Below the pieces are notes generated by a model. It ran no database searches, was not told the DNA's origin, and saw nothing but the letters and a program-made list of their open reading frames with translations. 49,674 nt of DNA from NCBI GenBank assembly GCA_009777445.1, contig WRLV01000007.1, positions 1-49,674 on the forward strand. The letters run 5' to 3'. Shown here piece after piece: positions 7,209-49,176 of the stretch (position 1 is the stretch's first letter; every line of letters starts with the position of its first letter). This DNA is from Oscillospiraceae bacterium. GTDB taxonomy: Bacteria; Bacillota; Clostridia; Oscillospirales; Ruminococcaceae. The translations under genes were made by a program, and so were the position numbers.

Positions 7209-7271
7209 CAGTTGACAGTTGACAATTGAGAGTTGACAGTTATGTAGGGGACGGGCTTGCCCGTCCCCTAC
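7209..7271. repeat. Dispersed modular repeat, copy 1 (TTGACA array plus 28-bp palindrome)
   Basis: Starts 5 bases after the spoVT stop. An array of TTGACA/GTTGACAGT units fills 7210-7240. A perfect palindrome GTAGGGGACGGGC-TT-GCCCGTCCCCTAC follows at 7244-7271. The palindrome may also terminate transcription from both convergent neighbours, but it lacks a strong T tract. Confidence 0.85.
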
Positions 7272-7295
7272 TATTCTGTTTATCTTATAAAATAT

Positions 7296-8213
7296 TTAAT
7301 TACCAATAAACTCTCTCACTAACGAATTGTCGGGGATTAGGGCGTGTTCAACGTTTCCGACTTGTGTTAAAACAGTTGAGAGTGTTTTCATTTGAGGGGA
7401 ATAATCATCTGTTTTTAAAAGAGAGTCTAAGTCTTTTGATAAAACGCTTTTATACGCACAAAGCTCATACGGAATGAAGGTGTCTATGTCAAATTTCGCT
7501 CTTTCTTTATAGGGCATAATGTACTTTTCTTCACCAAGCTCGACATTACTGAAAAAATTGAAAGTTTCATCAAGGCTTCTTCCCCTGAACAGGCGGTCGC
7601 GAACAAAACGCCGTGCCAATCTCACCTTTGACGGGTGGAGCAATTCTCCTTCGGCGGTTTCAATCCTAGTGCGAACTGAGACATAAACCCCCACGCTTTC
7701 GTTTGAAGCCGCGCCGGTCACGGTGGGGTTAAGCGCGTGAATCCCCTCAAATATTACGCTCTCGCCCGGACGGCGGCGCCAGGTCTCGCCCGCTAAACTT
7801 TGTTGCGTTTTAAAGTCAAAGTGTGGAATGTGTATTTCCTTACATTCAAGCAGGGCTTGAATATGTTGCCCGATTAAGTCTCTATCCATTCGTGAGGGCG
7901 ATTCAAGGTCGAGATTGCCATCCTCGTCAACCTCATTTCGAGGGTCGTTGTGAGAAAGAAAATAGTTGTCCATCGAAATAACCTTAGCTGGGTGTGAAAA
8001 TCGGGCAAGCATATCTTTCAGCCTAAGCGATGATATTGTTTTCCCCGAACCGGATGGTCCCGACAACAACACAATAGGGCTGATGTCGGCGTGAGCCGCC
8101 GCCTTTTGAGCAACTAAGGTAATTTGTGCGGTATACTCCTCTTCGCAAAAGTTTATAAATTCTGCGGCACTTTTAAGCCGACGATTGATACTTTCAATTT
8201 TAATAATTCTCAT
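7296..8213 (-). CDS. Uridine kinase-like P-loop nucleoside kinase
   Basis: A 305-residue protein of the phosphoribulokinase/uridine kinase family, expected to phosphorylate a nucleoside in pyrimidine salvage with a nucleoside triphosphate. The Walker A motif GPSGSGKT is at residues 52-59. The VISMDNYF, DLESPSRMD and FEGIHALN segments match the substrate and magnesium regions of clostridial uridine kinases. Those clostridial proteins are often about 550 residues with N-terminal TGS and threonyl-tRNA-synthetase-like parts. Only the kinase portion with a short leader is present here. RBS AAGGGGGGT lies 8 bases before the ATG. A perfect promoter sits upstream, back to back with that of the toxin-antitoxin pair. 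The exact substrate is not proven. Confidence 0.85.
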   Translation of the reverse strand: MRIIKIESINRRLKSAAEFINFCEEEYTAQITLVAQKAAAHADISPIVLLSGPSGSGKTISSLRLKDMLARFSHPAKVISMDNYFLSHNDPRNEVDEDGNLDLESPSRMDRDLIGQHIQALLECKEIHIPHFDFKTQQSLAGETWRRRPGESVIFEGIHALNPTVTGAASNESVGVYVSVRTRIETAEGELLHPSKVRLARRFVRDRLFRGRSLDETFNFFSNVELGEEKYIMPYKERAKFDIDTFIPYELCAYKSVLSKDLDSLLKTDDYSPQMKTLSTVLTQVGNVEHALIPDNSLVREFIGN

Positions 8214-8237
8214 AAAACAACCCCCCTTATTTTATCA

Positions 8238-8266
8238 ATTATACACCTAAAAACATAACTTGTCAA
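8238..8266 (-). promoter_or_regulatory. Sigma-A promoter of the uridine kinase gene
   Basis: On the minus strand: TTGACA at 8266-8261, a 17-base spacer, TATAAT at 8243-8238. Perfect consensus. Its -35 box lies only 6 bases from the -35 box of the divergent promoter. Confidence 0.8.
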
Positions 8267-8272
8267 TAACTG

Positions 8273-8301
8273 TTGACAAAAAGCTTTAAATGTGCTATCA
8301 T
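8273..8301 (+). promoter_or_regulatory. Sigma-A promoter of the toxin-antitoxin operon
   Basis: TTGACA at 8273-8278, a 17-base spacer and TATCAT at 8296-8301. The TTG within the -35 box is in frame with the toxin gene, but it precedes the promoter start site and cannot be the start codon. Confidence 0.75.
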
Positions 8302-8323
8302 ATATGCAGATAGGAGTGTTAAA

Positions 8324-8575: not shown

Positions 8576-8580
8576 TAATA

Positions 8581-8784: not shown

Positions 8785-8787
8785 TAA

Positions 8788-8820
8788 AAAGTCGAAGTTC
8801 ATTTTGTGAACTTCGACTTT
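8788..8820. terminator. Bidirectional terminator between antitoxin and transglutaminase genes
   Basis: A perfect 14-bp stem (AAAGTCGAAGTTCA/TGAACTTCGACTTT) with a 5-base loop, 4 bases from each convergent stop codon. T-runs flank it better on the minus strand. Confidence 0.85.
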
Positions 8821-8824
8821 AAAT

Positions 8825-11402: not shown

Positions 11403-11431
11403 TACGTACCTCCGAAAAAATTCCACACAGT

Positions 11432-17578: not shown

Positions 17579-17623
17579 AAGAGTTAGAGTTGATTTATTT
17601 AATTGTTCATATTGGAGGTAATT

Positions 17624-20600
17624 ATGAAAAAGTTTTTATCAATGCTCGTGGCTGTCGCTATTGCTTTATCTATCCCTGCGACACTCACCCCCGTTTTTGC
17701 ACAAGAGGGCGAAAACAATTTCACCTTGCCCGATGCAGGGCTTTCCGTGCCGATTGAGCAGGTGGGCGCGGACGTTCAGGCGATTGCCGCCCTTGTCCCG
17801 ACTGTGGCGCAATCCGGCGAATTCCTAAAACCCTTAGTCGGCTCACCAAGCGGCACGGCGCTTTCAAGCGCGGCTGACTTTGAAAAGTTCAGACCTACCT
17901 ACACACCCGCTGAGGACAGGTTAGACCCGGCAGGCAACTATTACTTAACAGGCAACATCGTCTTCTCCGATGAGTGGGCACCGATTAACGCTACCTTTAG
18001 CGGGACTTTAGACGGGCGGGGCAACACCATTATCTGGAACAATATCGATGGCAACGCGGCATTGTTCAACACTGCAAACGACGCTACTGTCAGAAATTTA
18101 AGAATAAATTATGTAGCTGTATCCTCTCAAGGGCTTTTTGCCACGGTTAACGAGTTCGGCGTGTCGTTTGAAAACTGCTTCGCCGACGGCACAATTAGCA
18201 CAAGCGAGCGTTTTTCAGGCGCGTTTGTGGGAACAGCACCTGTTAACACAAACACAAACGAGACAAATATATTGACGTTTAAAGACTGTTACTCATCGGT
18301 GAATATGAATGTCACAGTCCTTGTCAACGGGCCCTATATTGGCGGCTTTGTTGGCTCGGGCAGGGTAGACATAACCGACAGCTACTACAACGGCAACATG
18401 GTAATCACTTATGACGACTCTCGATCTCCATCGATAAATGTGGGCGGTTTTGTCGGCGGTCAAAGTTGGGCAACATATGGCGGCGGCGGCTCTAAAATTG
18501 AACGCAGTTTCGCCACCGGTGCTCTAAGCGTTAATCTAATCCAACCAAATTCTGCTACAACATCTGTCGGCGGCTTTGCCGGCACAGGGGTTTCATATAT
18601 AAAAGACAGCTATTCAGCTGTTAACGTTCATGTGAACACTGCCGGTGGAAATTTAGGCAACAGTCAAGTTATCGCCGGGGGAATGGTGGGAGGTATTGAC
18701 GGAAGTGGCATTCTTGACAGTGAACCTTATGTAAAAGTCGAAAACGCTTACGTAACCGGTGATATTAAAATAATAAACAAAGGCACCGCTGCCGGGCCGG
18801 TCGGTGGGATTATGGCTCAAGCCAGAAGTCTTGGGGCGCGCCCCATTGACTTCATAAATGTGCATTATTCCGGCGACACTATAGAAAGTTGGCTTGAAGA
18901 CACTCCACGCGGATTTGTCGGTGGGCTGATTGGAACAGTGCAACTCTCTGACGGCACTATTAAATTTAACAAGTGTTATTCTAACGCCACTAACATTTTC
19001 GGCGGTCAAACCGGTGGGCTTGCCGGCGCGCTGAGAATAAACGCGGAGTATGAAAACTGCTACAATAAAAGCAATATTACAGCGAATGCTAACGGCGGCG
19101 GCTTAAGCGGTGGTTTTTCGGCGACGACCATCAAAAACTCCTTCAACGAGGGAAATATTTCCACCGATATTGCCGGCGGTTTTCTTGGGCAAAACGAAAA
19201 CTCTCGCGCTGACGTAACAATACAAAACAGCTACTCTGAATGTGACATTACGGCATCTCGCGCGGCGGGGCAATTTATCGGGTATTTATCAGAAAGTTCA
19301 GTTACAACAAGCTTGACTCAAGTTAATGACAGTTATGCAAAAGGCGAAATTACGGCAGAATTTGAAGGAATTGCGCGCGAAGGTGCCACTCAAGGCGGCA
19401 TCCCTATATCAATAGGCGGCTTAATCGGGCGCGGCTGTAATTTGTCCACCGATAATGTCTACTCTGATGTTAAGATTACAGCGAACTTAGCCAGACCGGA
19501 TTTCTCTGCCACCAATCAAGCGTATGTGGGCGGAATTATCGGATATGGATGGAATGTCAACGAAATGAAGGACACACGTGCAGATGGCGACATCACAGTA
19601 GCCGCAGACTTCACCACCACCCATGCAGGGGGTCTTGTCGGTGGCACGGATAGAGGCAACGCAGATAATGAAAGTTTAATTATGCAAAACGTAAACTATA
19701 ACGGCAATTTAAATATTGTCGCAACCGACGGAAGCGCGGTATCTGTGGGTGGTTTATATGGATTGCGAAGCGGTGCTATTTCAACATTGTGCGATATTCA
19801 ACCTATTATCAAAAATGCTCATGTGAACGGTGACATTTTTGTTCAAGGCTCTGGCAGATATAATGACGTTGGCGGTTTGTTCGGGCGTTTTAGTACAGGA
19901 GCGCGCTTTGTTGTATTTTTTGAAGACTGTTCTTTCACCGGAAAGTTTGAGAGCAAAACCAACATAACAACAAGCGTGGGCACCAACCCGTCAGACAGTA
20001 TAGGAGGGATTTTGGGATATTCCTCAGATACCTCTGTTAGCTTTGACAATGTCCGCGTTAATATTGTGGACGGCATGAAAATAGAAAGTAACATAATTGT
20101 CTACGCAGGCGGAATCATCGGAAATAATTCATTCACCAGCAACTCACCGCCAGACAACGAGGGCATCGAAATAATAAACAGCGTTTTCAACGGCGAAATA
20201 ATTGCGAATGTTTTAAGTTCAGGTCCTACCACTGCACAATCCATAAGAATAGGTGGCTTGGCAGGTGACCTTGTTGGAAATTTAACCTTAAAATCAAATC
20301 AATTTTTGGGTGGAATATCTGTTACCACTGATATTTCCTTTACAGGCGCCAGCCGTGGTGATTGTGCAGTGGGCGGCCTTATCGGTCGCGCTTCACTTCA
20401 GCGTGCCAGCGGTTATGGCGGTTCTTTTAACTATATTCTTACTATTGAAGAGTGCAGTTATATCGGTGACATTTCGGTTATCGACACCGCCCATAATGTA
20501 GAAGAACCTTTCCCCTTATATACAGGCGGTTTAGTCGGGCGCGCAAACTCAAGCACGGCATTACAAACGTTCATTACCGATTCTTACAGCAAAGGGGATA

Positions 20601-23600
20601 TTAACGTAAACACACATAAAGGCGTTGCCTATACCGGCGGTATTATTGGTGTAAGCCCACGAGCGAGCTTTAATAACGTAAATTATGAGGGTAACCTTAC
20701 CACCACCACCTCATCGGGTAGAAATACGGACGATATAACACACTACACCGGCGGTTTAATCGGCGAGTTATATATTTCTGCTTTTGCCGATGACACCGTT
20801 CAGGCTGTTATAAACTCAAGTGGGGCAAAGGGGAACATAACCGCCCGAACAAACGGTTTACAAAACACACGCACTGGTCAAACCGCGCTTCACAACGGCA
20901 CGCGAGTCGGCGGCCTTATCGGCGAGTTTGCGGGTGGTAACGCTACTACACAACGCCGCGCTTCTCTTAGTGTGCAGGGCAGCGATTATAAAGGCGACAT
21001 TTCAGCCGTTAACACAGGTTTCGGCAGTGGCAGAAGAAACCCGATATACGTGGGTGGTCTAATCGGTAATTCTGACTTCCCCATATCCGGTATAATTGAC
21101 AGCCGCGCTGATGGCGACATCTATGCTTTAACAGAGCAGGGGCAAATTTATGCAGGCGGCATAGTGGGAAACAGCAGTCGTAGAACATCGCTCGACAATG
21201 TTTATTATGCAGGAGACATTACCGCCATACTACAAGAAACTAAAATGTCAGACTCTGTTGGCACAGGCACACTCTTATCATCCCCCACCCCAAACGGTTA
21301 TGCGGGCGGTCTGTTCGGCTTCTATTACCTTGCCACAGCCGGAGATGAAGAGTCTATTAACTCGTCCGGCTTCAACGGAAATATTAGTCTCATTAACAAA
21401 AACCATATGTATACCAATTCCAACGATAACGCAAATTCATTCGCCGGCGGTTTAATCGGGCTTTATCAGACAGTCAACGTAACCACCACAGTCATCCCCC
21501 CAATCTTGAACATTAACAACTCCTATTGGTTCGGCGACAAGGATATGCAAAGGGGTACTTTGACGGTTTCTAACCCTAACGCCACAGACGAATTCACCGG
21601 TTCCACACAGGCACAATCGGCATACGCCGGCGGCTTGGTTGGGAATTCTGAAGGCACAACCTCAAGGGGCGGTGTATTAAATATTAACAGCAGTGGTGCG
21701 TTCGCAGACGTTTTCGCATATTCAAAAGGCGGCAACGTTTTCACAGGCGGTTTTGTAGGCTCAACAGCAGGGGTAATAAACATTTTTGACAGCAATCAGC
21801 GTGGCGAAATAGAAGGGAAAGCAGGCGACACGCGAATTGCCGCCAACGCGCAGGCAGGTGGTTTAATCGGCTCAATCGGCACAAATGCCACCGGCGGCAC
21901 AATAATAAACAGCACTGCCGACGGTTCGGTTAAAGGGCAGAACAACACCGGCGGTTTAATCGGGCAAGGGCGCGGTATTTGGATTGAAAACAGCCGAAAC
22001 GTAAATTCAAGCGGCTCGATAATCGGAAATAATCGCGTAGGCGGTGTGGTCGGGCATATCGTGGGCGGAACCAATGATGCGGACGCAAGCACGATTATTA
22101 AAAGCGGTTATTCAGGAAACGTCAGCGGCATTGATTACGTCGGCGGAATAATAGGCGCGGCAGGTCAACCGGGCAATAACGGTCAGCACAACAACTCCGG
22201 CAACGTCAAAGGTTACACCCAAATCAAAGACAGTTACAGCGAGGGCGATATCAACGGGGCAGGGAATTACGTCGGCGGTATTGCAGGCTATCTTTCCGGC
22301 ACAGCAACAAACTCAAGCGGTATTAGCGGTGGTTATTCCGCTGGCAAAATCAGCGGCGAGACTTATGTGGGCGGCGTTGTCGGCTCTGCCTACGGCACGC
22401 CAATTGAAAGGTTTCTTGTGCTAAACGCGGTTAACGGCAACAGCTACATCGGCGGTGTCGCAGGTAGCTTTGTTGGCGGCGAGAGCAGCGTTGTTGCGGC
22501 GGCAAATATTGAAGACAGCTTTTCTCACGGTGACGTGAGCGGTGAAGGTGATTATGTCGGTGGCATTGCAGGGCAAATTAACTTTTCCACAATGATTATT
22601 GACACCGGCAGTTGGGGGAATGTCAGCGGCGCTGATTATGTCGGCGGCGTGGTGGGCTACCTTCAAACGGGGAGTGATTCTCGACATTCAAGCTCCGGGG
22701 TTATTAACAATTACGCTAACGGCGACATAAGCGGTAAAGAATATGTCGGCGGCATTGTCGGCAACGCTCAAGGCAGAGCTGTAGAAAGACGCGCTCTCAT
22801 TACAAACAATCACTCCACCGGAAAAATAAACGGCGCGAATTATGTCGGCGGAATTTTAGGGCTCGCCCAAACAAACGTTGTTGTTGACGAAAACTATTCT
22901 TTAAGCGACATCACGGCTCAAACCCACGTGGGCGGCATAGTGGGGAACACAATAGGCGGCTCTACAGCTAACAGAAACAGCGTTACAAATTGCTATTCTA
23001 TGGGGAATGTCAGCGGCGTTGATTATATCGGCGGCGTGATAGGAAGCACCGGCACATCGCCAACCAACGGTAACGGTAACACAAATATTTCCAACAATTA
23101 CGCCACCGGCAGGGTAGAGGGGCAAAATTATGTTGGCGGCATATTCGGCTTTATCAGACCCATAACAACCGGCGAAAACAATATAGCACTGAACTTCACC
23201 GTAAGAGCAACCGGGGAAAACGTTGGACGAATAGCAGGGTTCAGACAAAACACAAACACAGCCATTCTAAACGACAACTTCGCCTTTTCAGGCATTTTAA
23301 CCGGCGGCGGCACAGCGTTCAGCGGTAATATCATGCTTGACGGCGAGAGCAAAACAGCGGCACAGTTAGAATATTTAAGCGGTTTTCCCGTTGGGTTTAA
23401 CCTTGAGCCGTGGGTGTATGAGCAGGGCATGTTGCCCGGTTTAGGCGCGGCGGTTGAAATGCCGGAACATTTAGAGCCGGGGTTCGTCGCCGAGGTTGCC
23501 TTTAACTTTAGCGTAAACGGCGGCAACGGAGGGCTTAAAGTCACAGTAAACGGCAGAGAAATAAACAGCAGCGACTTAGTTGAGCGCGGCTCAACTGTCA

Positions 23601-23962
23601 TAGTTACAGCAGAGCCAACCCAGGGCTACCGCGTAAAACAGTGGGCAGTAAACGACACACCACAAAACGGCAACAGTATGCGGATTTTTGTCACCAATAT
23701 CAGAACACCACACACCGCAACAGTCGAGTTTGAACAATTAGGCAGCGACCAATTTATTCGCGGCGATTGTAATGGTGACGGGCTGATTAATGCAACAGAT
23801 TTAAGCACGCTCAAAGCCGTTTTAACAGGACAAACGCCAAAGTCAAGCCTTACAGCGGGCAAATTAGCAGCAATGGATATAAACAAAGACGAAAAGCTTA
23901 ACATAGCAGACATGACTTATTTGAAATATTATCTTGTTATGGCTGTAGGGTTTGTCAGTTGA
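17624..23962 (+). CDS. Giant secreted GLUG-repeat beta-helix protein with C-terminal dockerin
   Basis: 2112 residues from ATG 17624 (GGAGG 6 bases upstream). Residues 1-27 form a signal peptide ending VFAQE. The first repeat block (APINATFSGTLDGRGNTI ... FENCFADG) has the classic start of GLUG/filamentous beta-helix proteins. From about 180 to 1900 the sequence is an array of some 40 imperfect units of 35-60 residues, each marked by G-G-(F/L/I/V)-x-G. About 42 such motifs were counted by eye. Repeats after residue 1450 are more uniform and contain (N/D)YVGGI(V/A)G. An InlB-B-like repeat lies near 1955-2040. The dockerin follows, with calcium loops starting at Asp2048 (DCNGDGLINATD) and Asp2085 (DINKDEKLNIAD). 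It is probably a surface or matrix adhesin held by dockerin-cohesin pairing (inference). Its stop codon lies inside a repeat element. Confidence 0.88.
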   Translation: MKKFLSMLVAVAIALSIPATLTPVFAQEGENNFTLPDAGLSVPIEQVGADVQAIAALVPTVAQSGEFLKPLVGSPSGTALSSAADFEKFRPTYTPAEDRLDPAGNYYLTGNIVFSDEWAPINATFSGTLDGRGNTIIWNNIDGNAALFNTANDATVRNLRINYVAVSSQGLFATVNEFGVSFENCFADGTISTSERFSGAFVGTAPVNTNTNETNILTFKDCYSSVNMNVTVLVNGPYIGGFVGSGRVDITDSYYNGNMVITYDDSRSPSINVGGFVGGQSWATYGGGGSKIERSFATGALSVNLIQPNSATTSVGGFAGTGVSYIKDSYSAVNVHVNTAGGNLGNSQVIAGGMVGGIDGSGILDSEPYVKVENAYVTGDIKIINKGTAAGPVGGIMAQARSLGARPIDFINVHYSGDTIESWLEDTPRGFVGGLIGTVQLSDGTIKFNKCYSNATNIFGGQTGGLAGALRINAEYENCYNKSNITANANGGGLSGGFSATTIKNSFNEGNISTDIAGGFLGQNENSRADVTIQNSYSECDITASRAAGQFIGYLSESSVTTSLTQVNDSYAKGEITAEFEGIAREGATQGGIPISIGGLIGRGCNLSTDNVYSDVKITANLARPDFSATNQAYVGGIIGYGWNVNEMKDTRADGDITVAADFTTTHAGGLVGGTDRGNADNESLIMQNVNYNGNLNIVATDGSAVSVGGLYGLRSGAISTLCDIQPIIKNAHVNGDIFVQGSGRYNDVGGLFGRFSTGARFVVFFEDCSFTGKFESKTNITTSVGTNPSDSIGGILGYSSDTSVSFDNVRVNIVDGMKIESNIIVYAGGIIGNNSFTSNSPPDNEGIEIINSVFNGEIIANVLSSGPTTAQSIRIGGLAGDLVGNLTLKSNQFLGGISVTTDISFTGASRGDCAVGGLIGRASLQRASGYGGSFNYILTIEECSYIGDISVIDTAHNVEEPFPLYTGGLVGRANSSTALQTFITDSYSKGDINVNTHKGVAYTGGIIGVSPRASFNNVNYEGNLTTTTSSGRNTDDITHYTGGLIGELYISAFADDTVQAVINSSGAKGNITARTNGLQNTRTGQTALHNGTRVGGLIGEFAGGNATTQRRASLSVQGSDYKGDISAVNTGFGSGRRNPIYVGGLIGNSDFPISGIIDSRADGDIYALTEQGQIYAGGIVGNSSRRTSLDNVYYAGDITAILQETKMSDSVGTGTLLSSPTPNGYAGGLFGFYYLATAGDEESINSSGFNGNISLINKNHMYTNSNDNANSFAGGLIGLYQTVNVTTTVIPPILNINNSYWFGDKDMQRGTLTVSNPNATDEFTGSTQAQSAYAGGLVGNSEGTTSRGGVLNINSSGAFADVFAYSKGGNVFTGGFVGSTAGVINIFDSNQRGEIEGKAGDTRIAANAQAGGLIGSIGTNATGGTIINSTADGSVKGQNNTGGLIGQGRGIWIENSRNVNSSGSIIGNNRVGGVVGHIVGGTNDADASTIIKSGYSGNVSGIDYVGGIIGAAGQPGNNGQHNNSGNVKGYTQIKDSYSEGDINGAGNYVGGIAGYLSGTATNSSGISGGYSAGKISGETYVGGVVGSAYGTPIERFLVLNAVNGNSYIGGVAGSFVGGESSVVAAANIEDSFSHGDVSGEGDYVGGIAGQINFSTMIIDTGSWGNVSGADYVGGVVGYLQTGSDSRHSSSGVINNYANGDISGKEYVGGIVGNAQGRAVERRALITNNHSTGKINGANYVGGILGLAQTNVVVDENYSLSDITAQTHVGGIVGNTIGGSTANRNSVTNCYSMGNVSGVDYIGGVIGSTGTSPTNGNGNTNISNNYATGRVEGQNYVGGIFGFIRPITTGENNIALNFTVRATGENVGRIAGFRQNTNTAILNDNFAFSGILTGGGTAFSGNIMLDGESKTAAQLEYLSGFPVGFNLEPWVYEQGMLPGLGAAVEMPEHLEPGFVAEVAFNFSVNGGNGGLKVTVNGREINSSDLVERGSTVIVTAEPTQGYRVKQWAVNDTPQNGNSMRIFVTNIRTPHTATVEFEQLGSDQFIRGDCNGDGLINATDLSTLKAVLTGQTPKSSLTAGKLAAMDINKDEKLNIADMTYLKYYLVMAVGFVS

Positions 23963-24041
23963 CAATTGACGAACAATTGACAATGTACAATTGACAATTG
24001 ACGAACAATTGACAATGTACAATTGACAATTGACAATTGAG
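23957..24041. repeat. Dispersed modular repeat, copy 2, with 32-bp tandem duplication
   Basis: A TTGACAA-type array beginning at the GLUG gene's stop codon. Two exact 32-bp copies run 23959-23990 and 23991-24022, each holding TTGACAATTGACG and ACAATTGACAATGTACAA. Shorter TTGACAA units follow to 24041. The same GACGAACAATTGACAATGTA string recurs at 47610-47629. Confidence 0.85.
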
Positions 24042-35167: not shown

Positions 35168-36010
35168 ATGAAAAAGAGGATTTTATCGGTATTTTTAGCA
35201 ATGGCAATTTCAATCGGTTTCATTTCGGGTGGAATGTTAACTGCAAGCGCGGCGACCTCGGGCGATGGCTGGTCGTTGGACGATAACGGTTTACTTATTA
35301 TCAGCAGCGATTCGGCTATGCCGGGGTTTAAAAATACAGTTTGCATTTCGGGGCAACCGGATTTAATAATTGATGTCATTATTGAGGAAGGTGTAACATT
35401 TATTGGTGACAGCGCGTTTGTAGAGTGCAAAAATCTAAAATCCATAATAATCCCCAATACTGTTAAAAGCATAAATAACGCCGCGTTTGCCGGTTGCGAA
35501 GGACTGACTTCTATAATAATACCTGACAGTGTAATCTCTATTTCTATTGATGCGTTTTTTCGCTCAGGTTTAACCTCTGTAACAATTCCGAAAAGCGTTA
35601 TGTGGATAGGTCCTTTTGCTTTTGCTTACTCTAAAAATATGACGGAGGTGACTTTCCTGTCAAGCACCCCGCCCGAGCTTTACAATTTTGTTTTTGGCAA
35701 CTGTGATTCCCTAAGCACAATAAACGTTCCCGTTGGCTCGTTGGCGGCGTATCAGGCGATTGAACATTTGGGAGAGTTTAATATTGTAGAATTCGAGCCA
35801 CCTGTTATCGGTGACTGTAATCGTGACGACAAAATAAATATAGCTGATTTAACTTATCTCAAACGGGTTGTGGTGGGATATATGCCGGAAATTTTCATAA
35901 ACCGCCCCGAATGTTGGTTGACAGATGAAACAAAAAGAACTCAAAAACCCGAAGCACGAGACTTAACACAGCTTAAAGATTTTCTTACAGGGAAAATTAG
36001 TAGCTTGTGA
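35168..36010 (+). CDS. Secreted BspA-like leucine-rich-repeat protein with C-terminal dockerin
   Basis: 280 residues from ATG 35168 with GGAGG 8 bases upstream. The signal peptide is residues 1-29 (FLAMAISIGFISGGMLTASA). About five LRR_5 repeats of 23 residues follow (FIGDSAFVECKNLKSIIIPNTV type), then a TPPELYNFVF...VPVGSLAAYQ cap. The last 65 residues are a dockerin-like module: GDCNRDDKINIADLTYLKR is a normal calcium loop, while the second half (TDETKRTQKPEARDLTQLKDFL) lacks most calcium ligands. It is a close paralogue of 47744-49096, with near-identical DNA at both ends. It is expected at the cell surface. Confidence 0.85.
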   Translation: MKKRILSVFLAMAISIGFISGGMLTASAATSGDGWSLDDNGLLIISSDSAMPGFKNTVCISGQPDLIIDVIIEEGVTFIGDSAFVECKNLKSIIIPNTVKSINNAAFAGCEGLTSIIIPDSVISISIDAFFRSGLTSVTIPKSVMWIGPFAFAYSKNMTEVTFLSSTPPELYNFVFGNCDSLSTINVPVGSLAAYQAIEHLGEFNIVEFEPPVIGDCNRDDKINIADLTYLKRVVVGYMPEIFINRPECWLTDETKRTQKPEARDLTQLKDFLTGKISSL

Positions 36011-36099
36011 TGACAGTTGACAGTGGACAATTGAGAGTTGACAGTTGTGGTGTCGCCTTGCGGCGACGGATTGTAGGGGACGGGCTTGCCCGCCCCGAA
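36011..36099. repeat. Dispersed modular repeat, copy 3 (all three modules)
   Basis: Begins one base after the dockerin gene's stop. The GACAGTTGACAGT/GACAATTGAGAGTTGACAGT array runs to 36047, then hairpin GTCGCC-TTGC-GGCGAC (36051-36066), then the 28-bp palindrome from 36073 with a degraded right arm (GCCCGCCCCGAAT). Confidence 0.85.
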
Positions 36100-36116: not shown

Positions 36117-36148
36117 ACACCGCCCGACACTTTTGTGTCGGGCGGTGT
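36117..36148. terminator. Bidirectional terminator between convergent genes
   Basis: A perfect 14-bp stem ACACCGCCCGACAC/GTGTCGGGCGGTGT with a TTTT loop, followed by TTTT on the plus strand. The related sequence CACCGCCC...GGGCGGTG recurs after the paralogous gene at 49196-49223. Confidence 0.88.
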
Positions 36149-41561: not shown

Positions 41562-43115
41562 ATGAATGTTGCAAAAATTGTTATTGCCACGGCTTTGGTT
41601 TTGTCTTTTTGTGTCGGAACGGGTTGTTCTGACGAGAGCCTACATAATCCTGCGGTGACTGAAATTGATGTTGAAACGCCGGAATTGCCTTCGGAAGAGG
41701 TTGATAATGTTGATGACGAAGAATTAACAATCAGCTGGAAGGTTTTGCTCCACACCGAAAATCCTCCGTCAGAACTTGTGATGGAGCGGCTTTCAGAAAT
41801 TGTTGGGGCGAAACTCGAAACCGAATGGTATTACAACAGCGAAAAGGATGAGTTTGTGAACGAAGCGTTAGCCTCAAGACGGCTTGGTGATGTTATGTAC
41901 ATTCCCCAATTCGCCAACAATTCGTTTATAGTCGATGTGGTAAAAGACAAACTCTTTTGGGACGTAGAGCCTTATCTCGAAGATTTTGAGAATTTAAGCA
42001 AAATCTCACAAGGCAGGTTAGAATCGTCTAAACTTGAGGGTACGCTCTACGGCGTTCCGCATGAGCGACCGTATGCACGCTATGGGTTGCTCATCAGAAA
42101 AGACTGGTTAGACAATTTAGGGTTAGAGCCGCCGCAGACATTTGACGATGTTATGGCATTAGCGCGCGCGTTCACCGAAGAAGACCCCGATGGCAACGGC
42201 ATTGACGATACCGTGGGTTTGGTTGAGCGAAGCGAGTCGTTCAATTTAAGTTTCAGGGTAATCGCAGGCTATTTCGGCGCGCCGAACTTCTTTGAAATTG
42301 ACAACGGAAAGACTCGTTCGGTATTTGAACATGAGGGTTTCTTTAATGCCGCCACTAAAATGCGTGAGTTGTATGCAAGCGGTTATCTAAACCGCGATTG
42401 GTTCTCGTTAGACAAAGACTCGTGGCGTGAAATGGTGGCAGGCGGTGAGGGTGGAATGGCTTTCCTCACCATGTCCGACACGCGGTTTTTTAACAATGTC
42501 GCTATTGAATTAGGTTACCCCGAACCCGGACCGGGGTGGGTTTTGGTTAACGACATAACGGTTGACCGGGTTCCGCGCCGTTCTATTTCAGACACTGAGA
42601 ACGGTGTCGCGGGGTTTTTCGCGATTCCCACGGACATTCCCAAAGAAAGAATGCTTAAGGTTTTAGGCTTTCTCGACCGCCTTTACGGTGAAGAGGCGTT
42701 TGTTTTGATGTCTTACGGAATAGAGGGGTTGCACTTTGAACTCACCCCCGAAGGAAGATACAAAACGCTTGACGAGGAGAAGTATACAAACGAGGTCTTG
42801 CCGTTGTCACTTTCACGCCCGACGGATTTATTGTTCCATCGTTTTCCTTCTGACAATGAGTTTGACCGTATGGCATTTGACTTATTCCACTCTAACGAGC
42901 CGTTCGCGGTTTTGAACCCTTGCCAATCGCTTAACTCAGAGACCTTCAAAAGCGACTGGAGCAGAATTTCAGATATAATGCAAATGGCATATGCAAATTA
43001 TGTCATGGGGGGGATAGAACTCGATGAGTTCAAAGCCGAACGCGACAGATGGCTTGAAGAAGGCGGACGGGAAATTATGGAAGAATATGACGAACAGTTG
43101 ACAATTGACAATTGA
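41562..43115 (+). CDS. Extracellular solute-binding lipoprotein (family 1, LplA-like), copy 1
   Basis: 517 residues. The lipoprotein signal ends VGTGC with Cys22 (Gly at -3 is atypical). An acidic linker to about residue 55 follows, then a type I solute-binding fold: LYGVPHERPYARYGLLIRKDWLDNLGLEPP, the calcium-loop-like DPDGNGIDDTVGLVE, and PGPGWVLVNDI. Such proteins deliver sugars or oligosaccharides to ABC permeases. No permease or ATPase gene is present nearby, so its transporter is elsewhere or it acts as a sensor. It shares long identical stretches with the next gene, showing tandem duplication. Its final codons (EQLTIDN and stop) are encoded by a repeat element, so the native C-terminus was probably altered. 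Confidence 0.85.
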   Translation: MNVAKIVIATALVLSFCVGTGCSDESLHNPAVTEIDVETPELPSEEVDNVDDEELTISWKVLLHTENPPSELVMERLSEIVGAKLETEWYYNSEKDEFVNEALASRRLGDVMYIPQFANNSFIVDVVKDKLFWDVEPYLEDFENLSKISQGRLESSKLEGTLYGVPHERPYARYGLLIRKDWLDNLGLEPPQTFDDVMALARAFTEEDPDGNGIDDTVGLVERSESFNLSFRVIAGYFGAPNFFEIDNGKTRSVFEHEGFFNAATKMRELYASGYLNRDWFSLDKDSWREMVAGGEGGMAFLTMSDTRFFNNVAIELGYPEPGPGWVLVNDITVDRVPRRSISDTENGVAGFFAIPTDIPKERMLKVLGFLDRLYGEEAFVLMSYGIEGLHFELTPEGRYKTLDEEKYTNEVLPLSLSRPTDLLFHRFPSDNEFDRMAFDLFHSNEPFAVLNPCQSLNSETFKSDWSRISDIMQMAYANYVMGGIELDEFKAERDRWLEEGGREIMEEYDEQLTIDN

Positions 43116-43149
43116 CAGTTGACAATTGTTGTGTCCGCTTTCGCGGACG
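43093..43149. repeat. Dispersed modular repeat, copy 4 (array plus variant hairpin)
   Basis: The CAGTTGACAATTGACAATTGA array overlaps the last codons of the upstream gene. Hairpin GTCCGC-TTTC-GCGGAC (43134-43139 and 43144-43149) replaces the GTCGCC hairpin. GGGTTTTAT follows, so it can act as a partial terminator between the two lipoprotein genes. The RBS of the next gene begins 10 bases later. Confidence 0.8.
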
Positions 43150-43168: not shown

Positions 43169-44674
43169 ATGAGAAATTTAGTGTTTATTTTAGTTTTCGT
43201 GCTTGTGACGGGTTGCGTGGTTCAGCCGGAGGTGGTGCCGCCTGTTGTTGATGAAGTTGTGCAAGAGCAGGTTGAAACTGTTGAGCCTGAGTCAATCAGT
43301 TGGCTTAGTTGGCTTCATACTGAGTTTTCGCCTTCTGATGATGTTATTGATGCGCTTAGTGAAATTGTCGGCGAACAGCTTGAATTAAACTGGCAGCCTA
43401 ACGCCGAACGCAATGAAATTCTTACAAGTGCGATTGGCTCAAGAAGCTTAGGCGACCTTGTCAGCCTTATGCAGTTTGCACACAATACGGTTATTCGTCA
43501 AGCTATAGACGATGGGCTTTTTTGGGACATAGAGCCGTTTCTTGACGACTACCCGAATTTAGCGCAGATTGACAAAGACAGGCTCGAAGGCTCGCGGGTA
43601 AACGGCAAATTATACGGAATCCCATTCCAAAAACCATATGCACGCTATGGGCTACTTATCCGAAAAGATTGGTTGGATAACTTAGGGCTTGAACCACCCA
43701 AAACATTTGATGATGTTATGGAATTAGCAAGAGCGTTTACCGAAGACGACCCCGATGGCAACGGCATTGACGACACAGTAGGCTTGGTAGAACGCGATGG
43801 GGCTTTCAGCTCAAGCTTCAGAAATATTACAGGCTATTTCGGTGCGCCGAACTATTTCAGCATAAACGAACAAGGGCAGGTAATTTCTGCTTATCAACAC
43901 GATGGTTTCTTCACGGCGGCTGAAAAAATGCGTGAGCTTTATTCAAACGGTTATGTTAATCAAGATTGGGTAACCTTAGATAAAGACTCTCAAATAGAAT
44001 ATGTCATAAACGGAAAAGGCGGTATGGTCTTTATGGTCTTGACCGATGCCAGAATTTACAACATCGTAGCTATTTTGGCGGACGAACCCGACCCGGGTTG
44101 GGTTCTTGTGGGCGACATAGAAGTAGAGGGCATCGGAAGGCGGGTGATTTCCGACACCAACAACGGCATAGGTGGGCTGTTGGCAATTCCAACCACGGTG
44201 AGCGAAGAGCGGTTGCCGCGAGTGTTGAGTGTGCTTGATAAACTCAGTTCTAAAGAGGCGTTTGTGACTATGTCTTACGGCATTGAAGGCGTGCATTATG
44301 AAATCACAGACAGCGGCATATACAAAACGCTTGATGAAGAAGCGCACGGGCGTTACGTCCACCCCATGCACTCATCGCGCCCGAACGAATTGTGGATGTA
44401 TGAAATGCCAACTGAAAACGAGCTTGATGCGCAGGCGATTGAGTGGTTCCGCGAAAACGAAAAATATGTCGTGCTTAACGATTGTCAAACACTTCATTCG
44501 CAAACGCATTTTGACGAGTGGGGGCTTTTATTCCCAATCATGCACGGCGCGTATGCCAAATATGTTTTAGGGGAAATTAATTTAAACGAATTTTTAGCCG
44601 AACGCGACAGATGGCTTGAAGAAGGCGGTCAACGAATGATTGACGAATATGAAGCGGATTATGCCGCCCAATAA
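43169..44674 (+). CDS. Extracellular solute-binding lipoprotein (family 1, LplA-like), copy 2
   Basis: 501 residues, with a canonical lipobox VTGC (Cys16). The same architecture as its upstream paralogue, including KPYARYGLLIRKDWLDNLGLEPP, DPDGNGIDDTVGLVE, WVLVGDI, and ERDRWLEEGG near the end. The ligand-facing residues differ (for example MQFAHNTV against IPQFANNS), so a different ligand is possible. RBS AAGGAGGAAAT. Its stop is followed after 2 bases by the radical SAM gene, so the two are cotranscribed. Confidence 0.85.
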   Translation: MRNLVFILVFVLVTGCVVQPEVVPPVVDEVVQEQVETVEPESISWLSWLHTEFSPSDDVIDALSEIVGEQLELNWQPNAERNEILTSAIGSRSLGDLVSLMQFAHNTVIRQAIDDGLFWDIEPFLDDYPNLAQIDKDRLEGSRVNGKLYGIPFQKPYARYGLLIRKDWLDNLGLEPPKTFDDVMELARAFTEDDPDGNGIDDTVGLVERDGAFSSSFRNITGYFGAPNYFSINEQGQVISAYQHDGFFTAAEKMRELYSNGYVNQDWVTLDKDSQIEYVINGKGGMVFMVLTDARIYNIVAILADEPDPGWVLVGDIEVEGIGRRVISDTNNGIGGLLAIPTTVSEERLPRVLSVLDKLSSKEAFVTMSYGIEGVHYEITDSGIYKTLDEEAHGRYVHPMHSSRPNELWMYEMPTENELDAQAIEWFRENEKYVVLNDCQTLHSQTHFDEWGLLFPIMHGAYAKYVLGEINLNEFLAERDRWLEEGGQRMIDEYEADYAAQ

Positions 44675-44676: not shown

Positions 44677-45711
44677 ATGATAAACATATACGGGCTGACT
44701 ATAGAAAATTTAGAGAATTATTTTTCAAGTTTGGGTGAAAATAAGGCGAAAGCAAAAATCGTTTATAACGCAATATACAAAGAGCGAATAAACGATTTTT
44801 GTGAGCTTAGTTTAAGCACACGCGTGATTGACAGGCTGAATTGTGATTTTGAAAAACTTTCGTGCGGCTTGAAATTTATACGGCATGAAAACAGCGTTGA
44901 AGCAGCAAAACTGCTTTTCGGTTTAGATGACGGCAATATGGTAGAATCGGTTTTAATGCGCCATGATTACGGGAACAGCCTGTGCGTTTCAACTCAGGTG
45001 GGCTGTAACATGGGGTGTGCTTTTTGTGAGAGCGGCCCGCCGACTAAAAAAGGAAGAGCGAGAAACCTAAAACCCCACGAAATCGTGTTGCAGATTTTAA
45101 AAACCGAAGCGGCACTCTCAGAGAAGGTCAGCCGTGTTACACTCATGGGGATAGGAGAGCCGTTAGACAATTTTGACAACGTAATGGACTTCATAGATAT
45201 AATTGGGGAAAGTCAAGGTTTAAGTTTTGCTCCGCGGCATATCACAATATCCACCTGTGGGTTAGTTGAGCGGATTGAGCAATTAGCCCAAATAAAAACC
45301 CACAACAACTTAGCAATAAGCCTTAACGCCCCCACAGACGAACTCAGAAACGCAATCATGCCAATCAACAAGACTCATGGTATAAAAGAGCTTATAAGGG
45401 CAACTAAAGCATATTCCGACAAAAAGAATAAAAAAACAACCATTGAATATATAATGTTAGAAGGCTTCAATGATTCTAACGAGTGTGCGCACGCGCTTTG
45501 CCGCCTTTTAGACGGCATAAAGTGTTATGTGAATTTGATACCTTATAATCAAACCGCCTTGGGTTTTAAAAGAAGCTCACCTGAAACAATTGCGCAGTTT
45601 CAAAAAATACTATCTCAAAACGGAATAAAAACAACCATACGCAGAGAGTTTGGCAAAGATATTAAGGCTGCGTGTGGGCAATTAAGAGCTAAGAATGGAG
45701 GAATTTTATGA
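44677..45711 (+). CDS. RlmN/Cfr-family radical SAM RNA methyltransferase
   Basis: 344 residues. Radical SAM cluster Cys110-x3-Cys114-x2-Cys117 in CNMGCAFC; SAM-binding LMGIGEPLDN; ISTCGLVERI and AISLNAPTDELRNAIMPIN; C-terminal methyl-carrying Cys333 in AACGQLRAK. RlmN makes m2A2503 in 23S rRNA and m2A37 in some tRNAs; Cfr makes m8A2503 and gives antibiotic resistance. The insert ESGPPTKKGRARNLKPHEIV after the cluster differs from the usual RlmN text, so this may be a second, divergent member. It sits between solute-binding lipoproteins and a zinc-ribbon membrane protein, with a 4-base stop-start overlap downstream. Confidence 0.85.
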   Translation: MINIYGLTIENLENYFSSLGENKAKAKIVYNAIYKERINDFCELSLSTRVIDRLNCDFEKLSCGLKFIRHENSVEAAKLLFGLDDGNMVESVLMRHDYGNSLCVSTQVGCNMGCAFCESGPPTKKGRARNLKPHEIVLQILKTEAALSEKVSRVTLMGIGEPLDNFDNVMDFIDIIGESQGLSFAPRHITISTCGLVERIEQLAQIKTHNNLAISLNAPTDELRNAIMPINKTHGIKELIRATKAYSDKKNKKTTIEYIMLEGFNDSNECAHALCRLLDGIKCYVNLIPYNQTALGFKRSSPETIAQFQKILSQNGIKTTIRREFGKDIKAACGQLRAKNGGIL

Positions 45712-46193
45712 ATAAATGTCCTAAATGTGATTATAGTGTGCCTTCGGGGGCGCGCTATTGCCCGTCTTGCGGGTGTAATGTGACGAACCCTAATGATTTT
45801 AACGATAAAATCAATGAGTTTGGGGATAAGCTAAAGTCGTTAAACGAGACCGATGACTTTTCTTACAGATTTACAGATGATGATATAAGAACGTCAAAAA
45901 ACGTGGCTGCGTTGTCTTATTTGGGGATTTTGGTTTTAATCCCACTGCTCACCATGCCGGATTCTAAATTCGCAAAATTTCACGTTAATCAAGGGTTAAT
46001 TCTTTGCATAGCGCACGCCGCCGCCCTGTTTTTGAACTTTCTTCTGGGCTTTGTTTTTATCATAGGCTGGTTAGTCATGTCAGTCATCGGAATTGCACTG
46101 TTCACCCTTGTAGTCTTAGGTCTAATCAACGCCTTCACGGGAAAAGCAAAAGAACTGCCGGTTATCGGTGGGTTTAGAATAATTGACAGTTGA
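45708..46193 (+). CDS. Zinc-ribbon membrane protein (DUF4870-like)
   Basis: 161 residues. The N-terminal zinc ribbon MNKCPKCDYS...RYCPSCGC (four Cys as two CxxC) leads to an acidic linker, then a membrane domain with helices at about 66-80 (NVAALSYLGILVLIPLLTM), 92-112 and 116-145. The KNVAALSYLGIL and FHVNQGLIL segments resemble DUF4870-type proteins. The function is unknown. It overlaps the RNA methyltransferase gene by 4 bases (ATGA). Its stop codon is formed by the start of a repeat element (ATTGACAGTTGA). Confidence 0.75.
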   Translation: MNKCPKCDYSVPSGARYCPSCGCNVTNPNDFNDKINEFGDKLKSLNETDDFSYRFTDDDIRTSKNVAALSYLGILVLIPLLTMPDSKFAKFHVNQGLILCIAHAAALFLNFLLGFVFIIGWLVMSVIGIALFTLVVLGLINAFTGKAKELPVIGGFRIIDS

Positions 46194-46214
46194 GAGTTGA
46201 CAATTGACAGTCAA
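46182..46214. repeat. Dispersed modular repeat, copy 5 (TTGACA array only)
   Basis: ATTGACAGTTGAGAGTTGACAATTGACAGTC with no palindromes. It overlaps both the stop codon of the upstream gene and the -35 box of the downstream promoter. Confidence 0.75.
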
Positions 46215-46225
46215 TAGTGTATAAT
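46197..46225 (+). promoter_or_regulatory. Consensus sigma-A promoter built on a repeat
   Basis: TTGACA at 46197-46202 belongs to the repeat array. A 17-base spacer leads to TATAAT at 46220-46225. It drives the SGNH lipoprotein gene at 46254. The RBS AGTTAGGA lies about 10 bases before its ATG. Confidence 0.82.
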
Positions 46226-46253
46226 AAATAAAAAAAGAGTTAGGAATTTTAAA

Positions 46254-47060: not shown

Positions 47061-47064
47061 AAGA

Positions 47065-47622
47065 ATGTCTAAGAAAATGAAAAAAACAAGTCTGATTATT
47101 GTGTCAGCCCTTTTGTCTGCTTGCCTGTTGGCGGGCTGTCAAACAAATGAAACTGTTGACGAACTCAACCCCGAACCCGTTCCAACACCAGAAGAAACAG
47201 TCGTTGAGGTTGAAGAACCACACGTTGCAACGCCAAAGGAAATCCTCGCCGAAATTTTAGCGCAAATACCATTTCCAAGCCCTGTAGAAAGGGATGAAAC
47301 CGAGCGGCATTTCGGCGAATTCTACAGAATTGACACCACTGATTTGCAGGCGGCATCATTCGTGAACAGCGGTGCAGGATACCAACCCGATGAAGTTGCT
47401 GTATTCAAGTTTTCGTCACCCGAAAGTGCAGAAGCTGCCGTTGTAGTGTTAAAACGACATCTTGAAAGAAGAACCGTCACCTTTTCAGAATACGCCTCCC
47501 CCGAGGACATGAGAAAACTTTATGACGGCGTAGTTATGTCAAGGGGCGATTATGCCTTCTACATCGTTAACGCTGACAGTTCTAAAACTAAGGAAATTGT
47601 AGAACAATTGACGAACAATTGA
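47065..47622 (+). CDS. DUF4358-like lipoprotein
   Basis: 185 residues with signal peptide and lipobox LAGC (Cys25). A Pro/Glu-rich linker precedes a globular domain at about 60-180 with PDEVAVFKFSSPESAEAAVVVLKRHLERR and VMSRGDYAFYIVNADSSKTKEIVEQL, typical of DUF4358, a family of unknown function often next to acyltransferases or SGNH proteins. It directly follows the SGNH lipoprotein gene. The last residues (EQLTNN) and stop are encoded by the repeat element. ATG 47077 is an alternative start. Confidence 0.78.
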   Translation: MSKKMKKTSLIIVSALLSACLLAGCQTNETVDELNPEPVPTPEETVVEVEEPHVATPKEILAEILAQIPFPSPVERDETERHFGEFYRIDTTDLQAASFVNSGAGYQPDEVAVFKFSSPESAEAAVVVLKRHLERRTVTFSEYASPEDMRKLYDGVVMSRGDYAFYIVNADSSKTKEIVEQLTNN

Positions 47623-47702
47623 CAATGTACAATTGACAATTGACAATTGTGGAGTCGCCTTGCGGCGACTGATTGTAGGGGACGGGCTTGCCCGTCCCCT
47701 AC
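47601..47702. repeat. Dispersed modular repeat, copy 6 (all three modules, best preserved)
   Basis: The ACAATTGACGAACAATTGAC... array overlaps the upstream gene's last codons and runs to 47649. Hairpin GTCGCC-TTGC-GGCGAC is at 47654-47669. The perfect 28-bp palindrome GTAGGGGACGGGC-TT-GCCCGTCCCCTAC is at 47675-47702. The layout is the same as copy 3. Confidence 0.88.
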
Positions 47703-47743
47703 GAAAAATCACTAAAAATAGCAATTAATGGAGGGCGCAGGCA

Positions 47744-49096
47744 ATGAAAAAAAGAATTTTATCGATATTTTTAGCAATGGCAATTTCAATAAGTTTTATT
47801 ACAGTTGAAATTTTAAGCGTAAGCGCGGCAGACTCTGGCATTGATTGGTCGTTAGATGATGACGGCTTGTTGATTATAGAGAGTGATGCCGGTATGACAG
47901 ACTGGACACGGAACGGGAGAGGTGTAAACAGATTAGCAGTGCGCTCGGTTATTATTCAAGACAGCGTGACAAGTGTAGTCGATTCTGCATTTTGGTATTG
48001 CACCGGATTAACAAGTGTGACAATCGGCAACGGTGTGATAAATATAGGCAATGATGCATTTTCCGGTTGCATAGGATTGGCGGAAATTATAATCCCCTAT
48101 GGCGTAACAAGTATAGGTGCTCAAGCATTTGAAGCTTGCATAGGATTGACGGGAATAACAATCCCCGACAGTGTGACAAGTATAGGCGTTCGGGCATTTT
48201 TTGGTTGCATAGGATTGACGAGCGTGTCCATCTCTAACAGAGTGACAAATATAGCCAATTTTGTATTTTCCGGTTGCACGGGGTTGACAGAAATCATAAT
48301 CCCTAACAGCGTGAGAACGATAGGTAGTTGGGCATTTGAAAATTGCACGAAGTTGACGGAAATAATAATCCCCGACAGTGTGACAAGTATAGGAGTTGGG
48401 GCATTTGAAAATTGCGCGGAATTGAGAAGTGTGACATTTGGCAATGGCGTGACAAGCATAGGCGATTATGCATTTTCCGGTTGCACAGAATTGACACAAA
48501 TAAAGGTTTCAGCGGACAATCAAATTTACAGCGACATAGACGGTGTATTGTTTAATAAAAATGTCTCGTTCCTTTGGCAATATCCACCCGGGAGACAAGG
48601 GGGTTATACAATCCCTGACAGCGTGACAAGTATAGGCGCTCTGGCATTTTCTTATTGTGAAGGATTGACGAGTGTGACAATTCCAGACGGCGTGACAAGT
48701 ATAGGCAGTGTTGCATTTGGCAATTGCACCGGGTTGACAAGCGTGCTTTTTAAATCTCAAACTCCGCCGACATTTAGGCCTGATGTTTTCCGTAATGTCC
48801 CGTCAAACATGACGGTGTACGTCTCAATAGGCGCGAAGGCGGCTTATCAAGCTGAATTGAATGAATTTAACATTGTTGAAGGTGAACCTATTATCGGCGA
48901 TTGCAACCATGACGGCAGAATAAATATAGCCGATTTAACTTATCTCAAACGGGTTGTGGTGGGGTATATGCCGGAAATTTTCGTGAACAGACCGGAGTGT
49001 TGGCTGACAGATGAATCGAAAAGAACTCAAAAACCCGAAGCGGCAGATATAACACGGCTTAAAGATTTTCTTACAGGGAAAATTAGTAGCTTGTGA
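47744..49096 (+). CDS. Secreted BspA-like leucine-rich-repeat protein with C-terminal dockerin (paralogue)
   Basis: 450 residues. Signal peptide 1-29 or so. About eleven LRR_5 repeats of 23 residues (CTGLTEIIIPNSVRTIGSWAFEN type) run from 60 to 260, then a VLFNKNVSFLWQYPPG hairpin module and two more repeats. The cap is PPTFRPDVF...VSIGAKAAYQ. The dockerin-like end GDCNHDGRINIADLTYLKR has one good calcium loop, and the degenerate second half is TDESKRTQKPEAADITRLKDFL. N-terminal and C-terminal DNA is nearly identical to 35168-36010, while the repeat number differs (about 13 against 5). Such LRR_5 proteins are adhesins; dockerin suggests binding to a cohesin scaffold (inference). Confidence 0.87.
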   Translation: MKKRILSIFLAMAISISFITVEILSVSAADSGIDWSLDDDGLLIIESDAGMTDWTRNGRGVNRLAVRSVIIQDSVTSVVDSAFWYCTGLTSVTIGNGVINIGNDAFSGCIGLAEIIIPYGVTSIGAQAFEACIGLTGITIPDSVTSIGVRAFFGCIGLTSVSISNRVTNIANFVFSGCTGLTEIIIPNSVRTIGSWAFENCTKLTEIIIPDSVTSIGVGAFENCAELRSVTFGNGVTSIGDYAFSGCTELTQIKVSADNQIYSDIDGVLFNKNVSFLWQYPPGRQGGYTIPDSVTSIGALAFSYCEGLTSVTIPDGVTSIGSVAFGNCTGLTSVLFKSQTPPTFRPDVFRNVPSNMTVYVSIGAKAAYQAELNEFNIVEGEPIIGDCNHDGRINIADLTYLKRVVVGYMPEIFVNRPECWLTDESKRTQKPEAADITRLKDFLTGKISSL

Positions 49097-49105
49097 TGAA
49101 TTATT

Positions 49106-49176
49106 GTAGGGGACGGGCTTGCCCGTCCCGAAATTGATGTTTGCAGAAGACGGGGTGGGCAAGCCCAACCCCTACA
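49106..49176. repeat. Dispersed modular repeat, copy 7 (two palindromes)
   Basis: The GTAGGGGACGGGCTTGCCCGTCCCG palindrome at 49106-49130 has its right arm cut. A second, variant palindrome lies at 49152-49176 (GGGGTGGGC-AA-GCCCAACCCC), in opposite orientation. No TTGACA array is present here. Confidence 0.75.

Follow-up and report, generated by a model that had tools for sequence, protein, structure and literature searches.

The DNA analysed here is a window of 49,674 nt (43% G+C) from an Oscillospiraceae bacterium, and it is contig C7 of the source genome, G000 (1.98 Mb in 91 contigs, 91.6% complete). Seven sites in the window, and many more in the genome, carry parts of a composite repeat element that lies at the 3′ ends of genes. 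The 5′ half of the element is an array of the heptamer TTGACAR, running in the sense direction of the gene that it follows. The 3′ half consists of one or more hairpins, which we call H (in the forms α, β and γ), P and T. The element has a consistent placement and orientation, supplies TGA stop codons, keeps a fixed order and spacing of modules, forms inverted doublets, has stems whose letters change while pairing is kept, and is missing from most orthologous gene ends. We regard it, with restrained confidence, as probably a dispersed composite gene-3′-end element of mobile origin.

The arrays are numerous. In the first set of G000 sequence, 848,134 nt including the window, 143 arrays were observed, against none in one mononucleotide shuffle; a backwards control for the heptamer pattern is not independent, as the reversed heptamer resembles itself. 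With a held-out set of 304,772 nt (about 1.15 Mb combined), the count becomes 189, for an estimated 325 genome-wide. A 33-nt array composite is present in 37 exact copies in the first set, and composite arrays whose variant units keep fixed places are found many times over. The order of the modules is fixed: (TTGACAR)n, then H, then P, often then T. After the 143 arrays come H-α in 42 cases, H-β in 42, H-γ in 4 and no H in 55, and P follows 41, in 13 of them with H in between. Of the 188 usable arrays, 113 have H 3′ and 1 has it 5′; 50 have P on the 3′ side and none on the 5′ side. As to spacing, in 115 of 143 cases (3.9 in shuffles) a hairpin, sometimes P, begins no more than 16 nt from the array, and 83 of these 115 begin 7 nt after it. 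Of 51 T hairpins in the 1.15 Mb, 38 lie within 170 nt 3′ of an array, in zones that make up about 2.8% of the sequence. The initial annotation had described up to three modules in fixed order. The order stands, with H ahead of P in 17 of the 17 arrays bearing both; the number does not, as T is a frequent fourth module. The window site at 49106 lacks an array.

Most of these arrays stand at gene ends. For 108 of the 136 evaluable arrays in the first set, a gene on the same strand ends within −15 to +40 nt of the array start, and on the other strand the number is 1. By a wider measure, 113 of the 136 follow or overlap the end of a same-strand frame of 100 codons or more, the stop being inside the array or no more than 150 nt ahead of it; in 108 of these it falls within −12 to +36. 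Many of the other 23 are second arms of convergent pairs, one lies directly 3′ of a tRNA-Gly gene, and a few are unexplained. The stop is TGA in 97 of the 108 gene-end arrays, compared with a baseline of 29% TGA, 54% TAA and 17% TAG in 432 array-free frames of at least 200 codons. In the held-out set, with 46 arrays of which 38 were evaluable, gene ends were 26 sense and 0 antisense, and TGA was the stop in 23 of the 26. A leader, TGA(C/T)G..CA, is found at 70 of 113 gene-end arrays, and its TGA is the actual stop in 40; as the leader also stands where that TGA is not in frame, we count it as part of the element. Few copies or random placement had been named beforehand as findings that would speak against a mobile family; with about 325 arrays and 108 sense gene ends to one antisense, neither describes what was found. 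Annotation is affected as well: the array encodes C-termini such as -LTIDN, and TGA at array-ended genes is a mark of the element, not of codon preference.

The modules in the window are as follows.

7202–7211, + strand: leader TGACGAACAG; the TGA within it is the stop of a SpoVT-like gene (6662–7204)
7212–7239, + strand: heptamer array
7244–7271, + strand: P with the rare CTAC end, forming a 28-bp palindrome
23952–24036, + strand: heptamer array in which the leader-array composite occurs twice, without H or P; the stop TGA of a gene for a 2119-aa dockerin protein is at 23960
36010–36044, + strand: heptamer array; the stop TGA of an LRR_5 gene is at 36008
36052–36067, + strand: H-α, GTCGCC-TTGC-GGCGAC
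36073–36096, + strand: P with one stem change
36118–36147, + strand: T, a terminator-like hairpin
43098–43125, + strand: heptamer array containing the stop TGA (43113) of gene 41562–43115
43133–43148, + strand: H-β, GTCCGC-TTTC-GCGGAC
46183–46210, + strand: heptamer array, without H or P, containing the stop TGA (46191) of gene 45708–46193
47608–47646, + strand: heptamer array containing the stop TGA (47620) of gene 47065–47622
47654–47669, + strand: H-α
47675–47702, + strand: P with the rare CTAC end, forming a 28-bp palindrome
49106–49129, + strand: P without an array, 9 nt past the stop of an LRR_5 gene (47744–49096)
49152–49175, − strand: degenerate P in inverted orientation; with the P at 49106 it makes a GTAG-outside pair

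All seven places in which the initial annotation had seen repeat modules do hold them; the array is present at 6 of 7, H at 3 and P at 4. The inverted degenerate P at 49152–49175 was absent from its list. It had placed the elements near the upstream stop codon, and the placement at gene ends is upheld, with a closer relation than nearness: the upstream stop is TGA at 6 of 6 window arrays and lies inside the array at 23960, 43113, 46191 and 47620.

Comparison with relatives addresses how the arrays came to these sites. Orthologous gene ends were examined for 30 genes in six relatives, giving 44 usable rows of 47. Three rows (a079, a080 in G041, and a098, which had been scored as array-sharing) were dropped, as the stop found preceded the aligned end. 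The array is absent at 40 of the 44 orthologous ends. The protein ends no more than four residues from the end of its orthologue in 37 of the 44, and exactly at the orthologous residue in 15 (SpoVT accounts for five), so the element sits at the native gene end. Stop usage suggests that the array usually replaced a TAA or TAG stop. For SpoVT, no array was found behind the gene in 19 of 19 other fetched loci of the genus. Arrays occur in two of the six relatives without this H or P: G047 has 11 in 400 kb (same-strand genes at 9 of 11, with TGA at 9), and G041 has 23 in 310 kb (same-strand genes at 13 of 21, with TGA at 11). The array is, for this reason, taken as the basic piece of the element. 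In a further congener, G006, a 124-nt array-P-T unit is 91% identical to its G000 counterpart; positions 1459–1645 of the 3024-nt G006 query alone match G000, and the flanks have no match (the G006 assembly is 86% complete with 1% contamination, so that stray contigs are possible). By the pattern used, at least one array match is present in 19 of 47 congeners, leaving 28 without, and arrays are present in 9 of 291 sampled genomes of the class, G000 included, leaving 282 without. Dispersal as a unit, which had been suggested from the window alone, is supported by the 37 exact composites, the orthologous ends without an array and the G006 unit with other flanks.

The P module has the form of a known kind of element, the GTAG-tagged repetitive extragenic palindromic (REP) sequence. 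With up to two mismatches over 25 nt, P was found at 73 + 65 places on the two strands, against 0 for the reversed pattern, and over 24 nt at 81 + 74 places; a few fully palindromic copies are scored on both strands, and overall there are roughly 140–155 copies. It consists of an unpaired GTAG tag and a 20-nt hairpin with a 9-bp stem and a TT loop. In a sample of 83 copies from G000, picked by GTAG and the TT loop, 50 are identical, the variants are partly compensated, and 50 lie within 60 nt 3′ of an array. Inverted pairs have GTAG outside in 15 cases, GTAG inside in 0 and are tandem in 0. A general 28-bp palindrome, the form in which the module had first been described, is rejected: the hairpin continues with CTAC in 6 of the 83 copies and does not in 77, and within the window the full palindrome is present in two copies (7244 and 47675). 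The label REP-like accordingly holds for P by its tag, stem, loop, copy number and inverted pairs, and the palindrome does not. Mispairs in the stem, read on the GTAG strand, are G-T in 18 cases, A-C in 2 and other in 15, among copies that may share ancestry; counted as distinct variants, they are 13 G-T and 2 A-C. This asymmetry points to folding of the GTAG strand, as RNA or as single-stranded DNA.

GTAG-tagged REPs, in the part of the account of Di Nocera et al. (2013, PMC3733652) available to us, have an unpaired GTAG at one end, a stem of 6–13 bp and a loop that is often TY; they are present in high copy, mostly downstream of coding regions, and loss of the REP-associated tyrosine transposase (RAYT) is allowed for. 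P is like them in its tag, TT loop, gene-3′ site and GTAG-outside pairs, and it fits the structural definition in tag, stem, loop, copy number and placement. A RAYT in the genome is a further mark of such REPs, and no PF01797 gene was found in G000. P is further unlike them in sitting behind a heptamer array and in its Clostridia-type host; the words “Clostridi” and “Firmicutes” are absent from the main text of that paper.

H is a hairpin of a different kind. We ruled out a CGTC-tagged REP, defined as a CGTC tag outside an 8–9 bp stem that begins with A-T pairs, as the H stem is 6 bp and G+C-rich, with GTC inside the stem. H follows a pairing rule. Among 22 convergent array pairs in the first set, 16 could be typed on both arms: 12 are α-β, 3 γ-β, 1 γ-α, and none joins like with like. 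The held-out set adds four separate α-β pairs. A search for neighbouring hairpins gave 25 α-β, 2 α-α and 1 β-β; a tandem duplication in L330 holds 3 of the 25, one of the α-α and the sole β-β, which leaves one true α-α. These doublets end in inverted array-H arms. Their spacer, GTATTTTAAAAAC, is exact in five doublets and differs by one base in two more, a related 19-nt spacer is common to five, and the unit is found in both orientations. The α-β rule is best explained if present doublets descend from a few ancestral ones, the doublet being a copied unit. The rule and the shared spacers lead to the argument made for REPINs by Bertels and Rainey (2011, PMC3116915, consulted in part). As in REPINs, there are inverted doublets with conserved spacers, both P pairs and α-β pairs; unlike in the REPINs described there, the doublet has two different hairpins with arrays at its flanks, and no linked RAYT was found in G000. 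Selection against perfect inverted repeats may be an alternative cause of the α-β rule. A search of the genome collection for array plus H gave no match; it was narrow, restricted to a single stem form and loop length, and may have excluded records of the genome itself, so confinement of H to this species does not follow.

We propose the following for how such an element might spread. A sense TTGACAR array has TGA in every frame; lying at a gene end, it closes the frame within a few codons, serves as the stop codon and leaves a spacer ahead of the next module. Any of several hairpins (H-α or H-β, P, T) makes up the 3′ half and is foldable in the gene's own transcript, with H often being one arm of an α-spacer-β doublet, a REPIN-like unit. 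The composite would be mobile DNA of a non-autonomous kind, its high copy number reached by insertion at gene ends and its copies moved by a transposase acting in trans, which for P was probably a Y1 enzyme of the RAYT type that G000 now lacks. By ending translation 14 nt or more ahead of the hairpin, the array may keep the insertion from doing harm, and the folded form would act as RNA. The distance from stop to hairpin is 14–94 nt (median 39, n = 95) and at least 15 nt in 94 of 95, because of the array length. As summarised in PMC12306157, of which we rely on part, ribosomes stall in E. coli at REPs lying within 15 nt of a stop. Our elements are like these in having a hairpin downstream of the stop at a distance that matters, and unlike them in that the array stands between, with almost every hairpin beyond that range.

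Several observations weigh against this proposal. The linked Y1 transposase (PF01797) that the initial annotation had suggested looking for was not found in the G000 assembly, of which about 8% may be missing, and neither was a reverse transcriptase, so that copying by the latter was rejected. Among 29 congeners, arrays and Y1 genes are not associated (both in 4, arrays only in 9, Y1 only in 7, neither in 9; p = 0.70). Arrays are shared at orthologous ends with G041 (3 of 11) and G047 (1 of 15; the other four relatives, 0 of 18), which suggests retention, as would also be expected of a host function. The stop-to-hairpin distance, being set by the array length, is no proof of insulation. A pointer to the machinery of P comes from an order-mate, contig G060:C50 (L361, 9226–9620), with a broken RAYT gene (NF047646, 40 bits, under the 80-bit cut-off). 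Its frame contains a P-type GTAGGGG REP, translated as VGAGLARPE, and another REP lies just beyond the gene. G000 itself has one TnpB-type gene (L348, G000:C87), and a different GTAGGGG hairpin, GTAGGGGCGCACATTGTGCGTCC, is just past its end.

The array half of the element is not confined to this lineage. A 29-nt array pattern matched at least 117 stretches of named genomes, picked by sequence alone and grouped by their record titles. The counts by group given here are among the matches listed: 78 stretches are from Cyanobacteria, 19 from Bacteroidota, 16 from Clostridia and other Firmicutes, and 4 from others. Tight gene ends are 40 sense to 3 antisense of 94 arrays in Cyanobacteria, 15 to 2 of 26 in Bacteroidota and 10 to 2 of 23 in the group of Clostridia and other Firmicutes; the four other stretches show no bias (1 to 2 of 6). 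TGA is in clear excess in Cyanobacteria (21 of 40, baseline 26%) and not significantly so in Bacteroidota (9 of 15, baseline 41%, p = 0.19). As our first orientation control missed antisense arrays that a gene reads through, it was repeated with read-through allowed. Outside G000 (n = 332), sense gene ends fall in the array in 98 cases, 1–15 nt upstream in 58 and beyond in 4, and antisense ends in 2, 15 and 22, a reduced bias of about 4:1 that still holds. TAA stops, which the array cannot make, are 43 sense and 13 antisense (35 and 12 without G000). The viral set contains contigs of the genome itself (L301 is G000:C63, and L282 carries its IMG genome number), and counts from that set are therefore not independent; these two were left out of the TAA count only.

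In other Clostridia a hairpin lies near 10 of 26 arrays, 9 of them at the 7-nt spacing (0.8 in shuffles), with stems such as GTCCC/GGGAC, ATCCCC/GGGGAT, ATCGCC/GGCGAT and GTTGCC/GGCAAC. In nine such hairpins 5 of 6 pairs are changed on both sides, in rows picked because they fold; the 54 of 54 paired cells in our covariation count are so by construction. Such hairpins are scarce near arrays elsewhere: 7 of 117 in Cyanobacteria (2.8 in shuffles), 1 of 30 in Bacteroidota and 2 of 35 in congeners. It is conceivable, and we put it forward tentatively, that (TTGACAR)n is a class of 3′-end element in at least three phyla, a portable all-frame stop and insulating spacer, which in some Clostridia serves as a fixed platform for copied lineage-specific hairpins (H and the REP-type P) under a two-form pairing rule. 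If this were true, it would be the array that lets REPs there spread at gene ends without harm. On the viral record IMGVR_UViG_3300031885_000043 (L285, L288, L296 and L298), dense mixed TTGACA/TGGACA arrays converge on short central palindromes about 20–30 nt apart, in a different arrangement.

These same data bear on the chief rival explanation, a host-maintained signal in the 3′ untranslated region: (UUGACAR)n would bind an RNA-binding protein or RNase, the hairpins would stabilise or process 3′ ends, and the spread would be old and under selection. We think this rather improbable, though worth serious attention. The sense bias in Cyanobacteria and Bacteroidota (among the matches listed, 40 to 3 and 15 to 2) would be expected of such a signal, as would the like bias of TAA stops, the arrays shared with G041, the paired stems with other letters in other Clostridia and the wobble asymmetry of P. 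Against it stand the 28 of 47 congeners and 282 of 291 class genomes that have no arrays by the pattern used, the 40 of 44 orthologous ends without one, and the near-identical composites that recur in one genome, as from recent copying.

Plain intrinsic terminators with decoration are unlikely. T hairpins do resemble terminators, 28 of the 38 array-linked copies having 5 or more T in the next 10 nt, and the neighbouring gene is convergent at 39 of 124 gene-end arrays. Yet 67 of the 124 precede a codirectional gene, and H and P appear mostly to lack a T run (the contexts listed show GGATTT, GAA and the like, which we did not count as one). Terminator-like sites in the scanned stretch of the window number 16, against 15.5 in shuffles, and the array, the TGA supply and the α-β rule are left unexplained.

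Local replication slippage, by which arrays would be microsatellites grown in place at positions that reflect tolerance, is likewise unlikely: the homogeneous arrays, mostly TTGACAG, of Cyanobacteria and other named genomes and the unbiased orientation in the four other stretches (both among the matches listed) fit it, but composites with variant units at fixed places recur at unlinked G000 loci, the shared leader persists where its TGA is out of frame and TAA stops show the same orientation bias, so that slippage could hold only for the homogeneous arrays outside G000.

The reading of a mobile composite can be set beside known repeats. REPs and heptamer repeats are known separately. The SDR elements of Nostoc, which Elhai and colleagues are said to have described in 2008, are reportedly tiny folding elements, some within heptamer repeats. 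We know of no settled reason why REPs crowd at gene ends. The array is similar in kind to the TAACTGA heptamer repeats found in Beggiatoaceae, Cyanobacteria and Bacteroidetes, whose Beggiatoa copies are mostly just upstream of start codons (MacGregor 2015, PMC4679880, as far as consulted). Both consist of heptamers arrayed between genes, provide a stop in each frame and have a patchy distribution in the same phyla. They differ in unit and place, TTGACAR being located at stop codons, and hairpin modules were not seen described in that source. In the literature searched by words and by sequence letters, no description was found of TTGACAR arrays at stop codons, nor, in the literature searched, of the array-hairpin combination, the stop supply, the cross-phylum placement or the α-β rule. 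What is brought together here is a stop codon, spacer and hairpins copied jointly as a unit; the genome that bears them yielded no RAYT, and the array half recurs at gene ends from Cyanobacteria to Clostridia. This raises the question of whether a sense array between stop and hairpin protects translation termination, and whether such protection accounts for the spread of the composite.

Some smaller observations concern individual copies. A tRNA-Gly gene (L078, 8751–8831) has an array directly 3′ and a second, oppositely oriented array at its 5′ end. The genes of the window include those for SpoVT, a GTP-dependent phosphoenolpyruvate carboxykinase, a dockerin protein and BspA-type leucine-rich repeat proteins, a set that suggests a genome of Clostridia type. 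The product of the dockerin gene, 17603–23962, is 2119 aa long; it contains many short repeats and ends in a dockerin domain. Two LRR_5 gene ends are 88% identical (35800–36013 and 48886–49099); one is followed by array-H-P-T and the other by P alone. An array-H element lies between adjacent paralogous genes for solute-binding proteins, 41562–43115 and 43169–44674. Arrays as promoters in general were considered, the heptamer holding TTGACA, and rejected, as the TATAAT pattern was unseen in the other contexts listed (no count was made). The array at 46183 does provide the −35 box of a full-consensus TTGACA-17-TATAAT (46197–46225, + strand), ahead of the gene at 46254.

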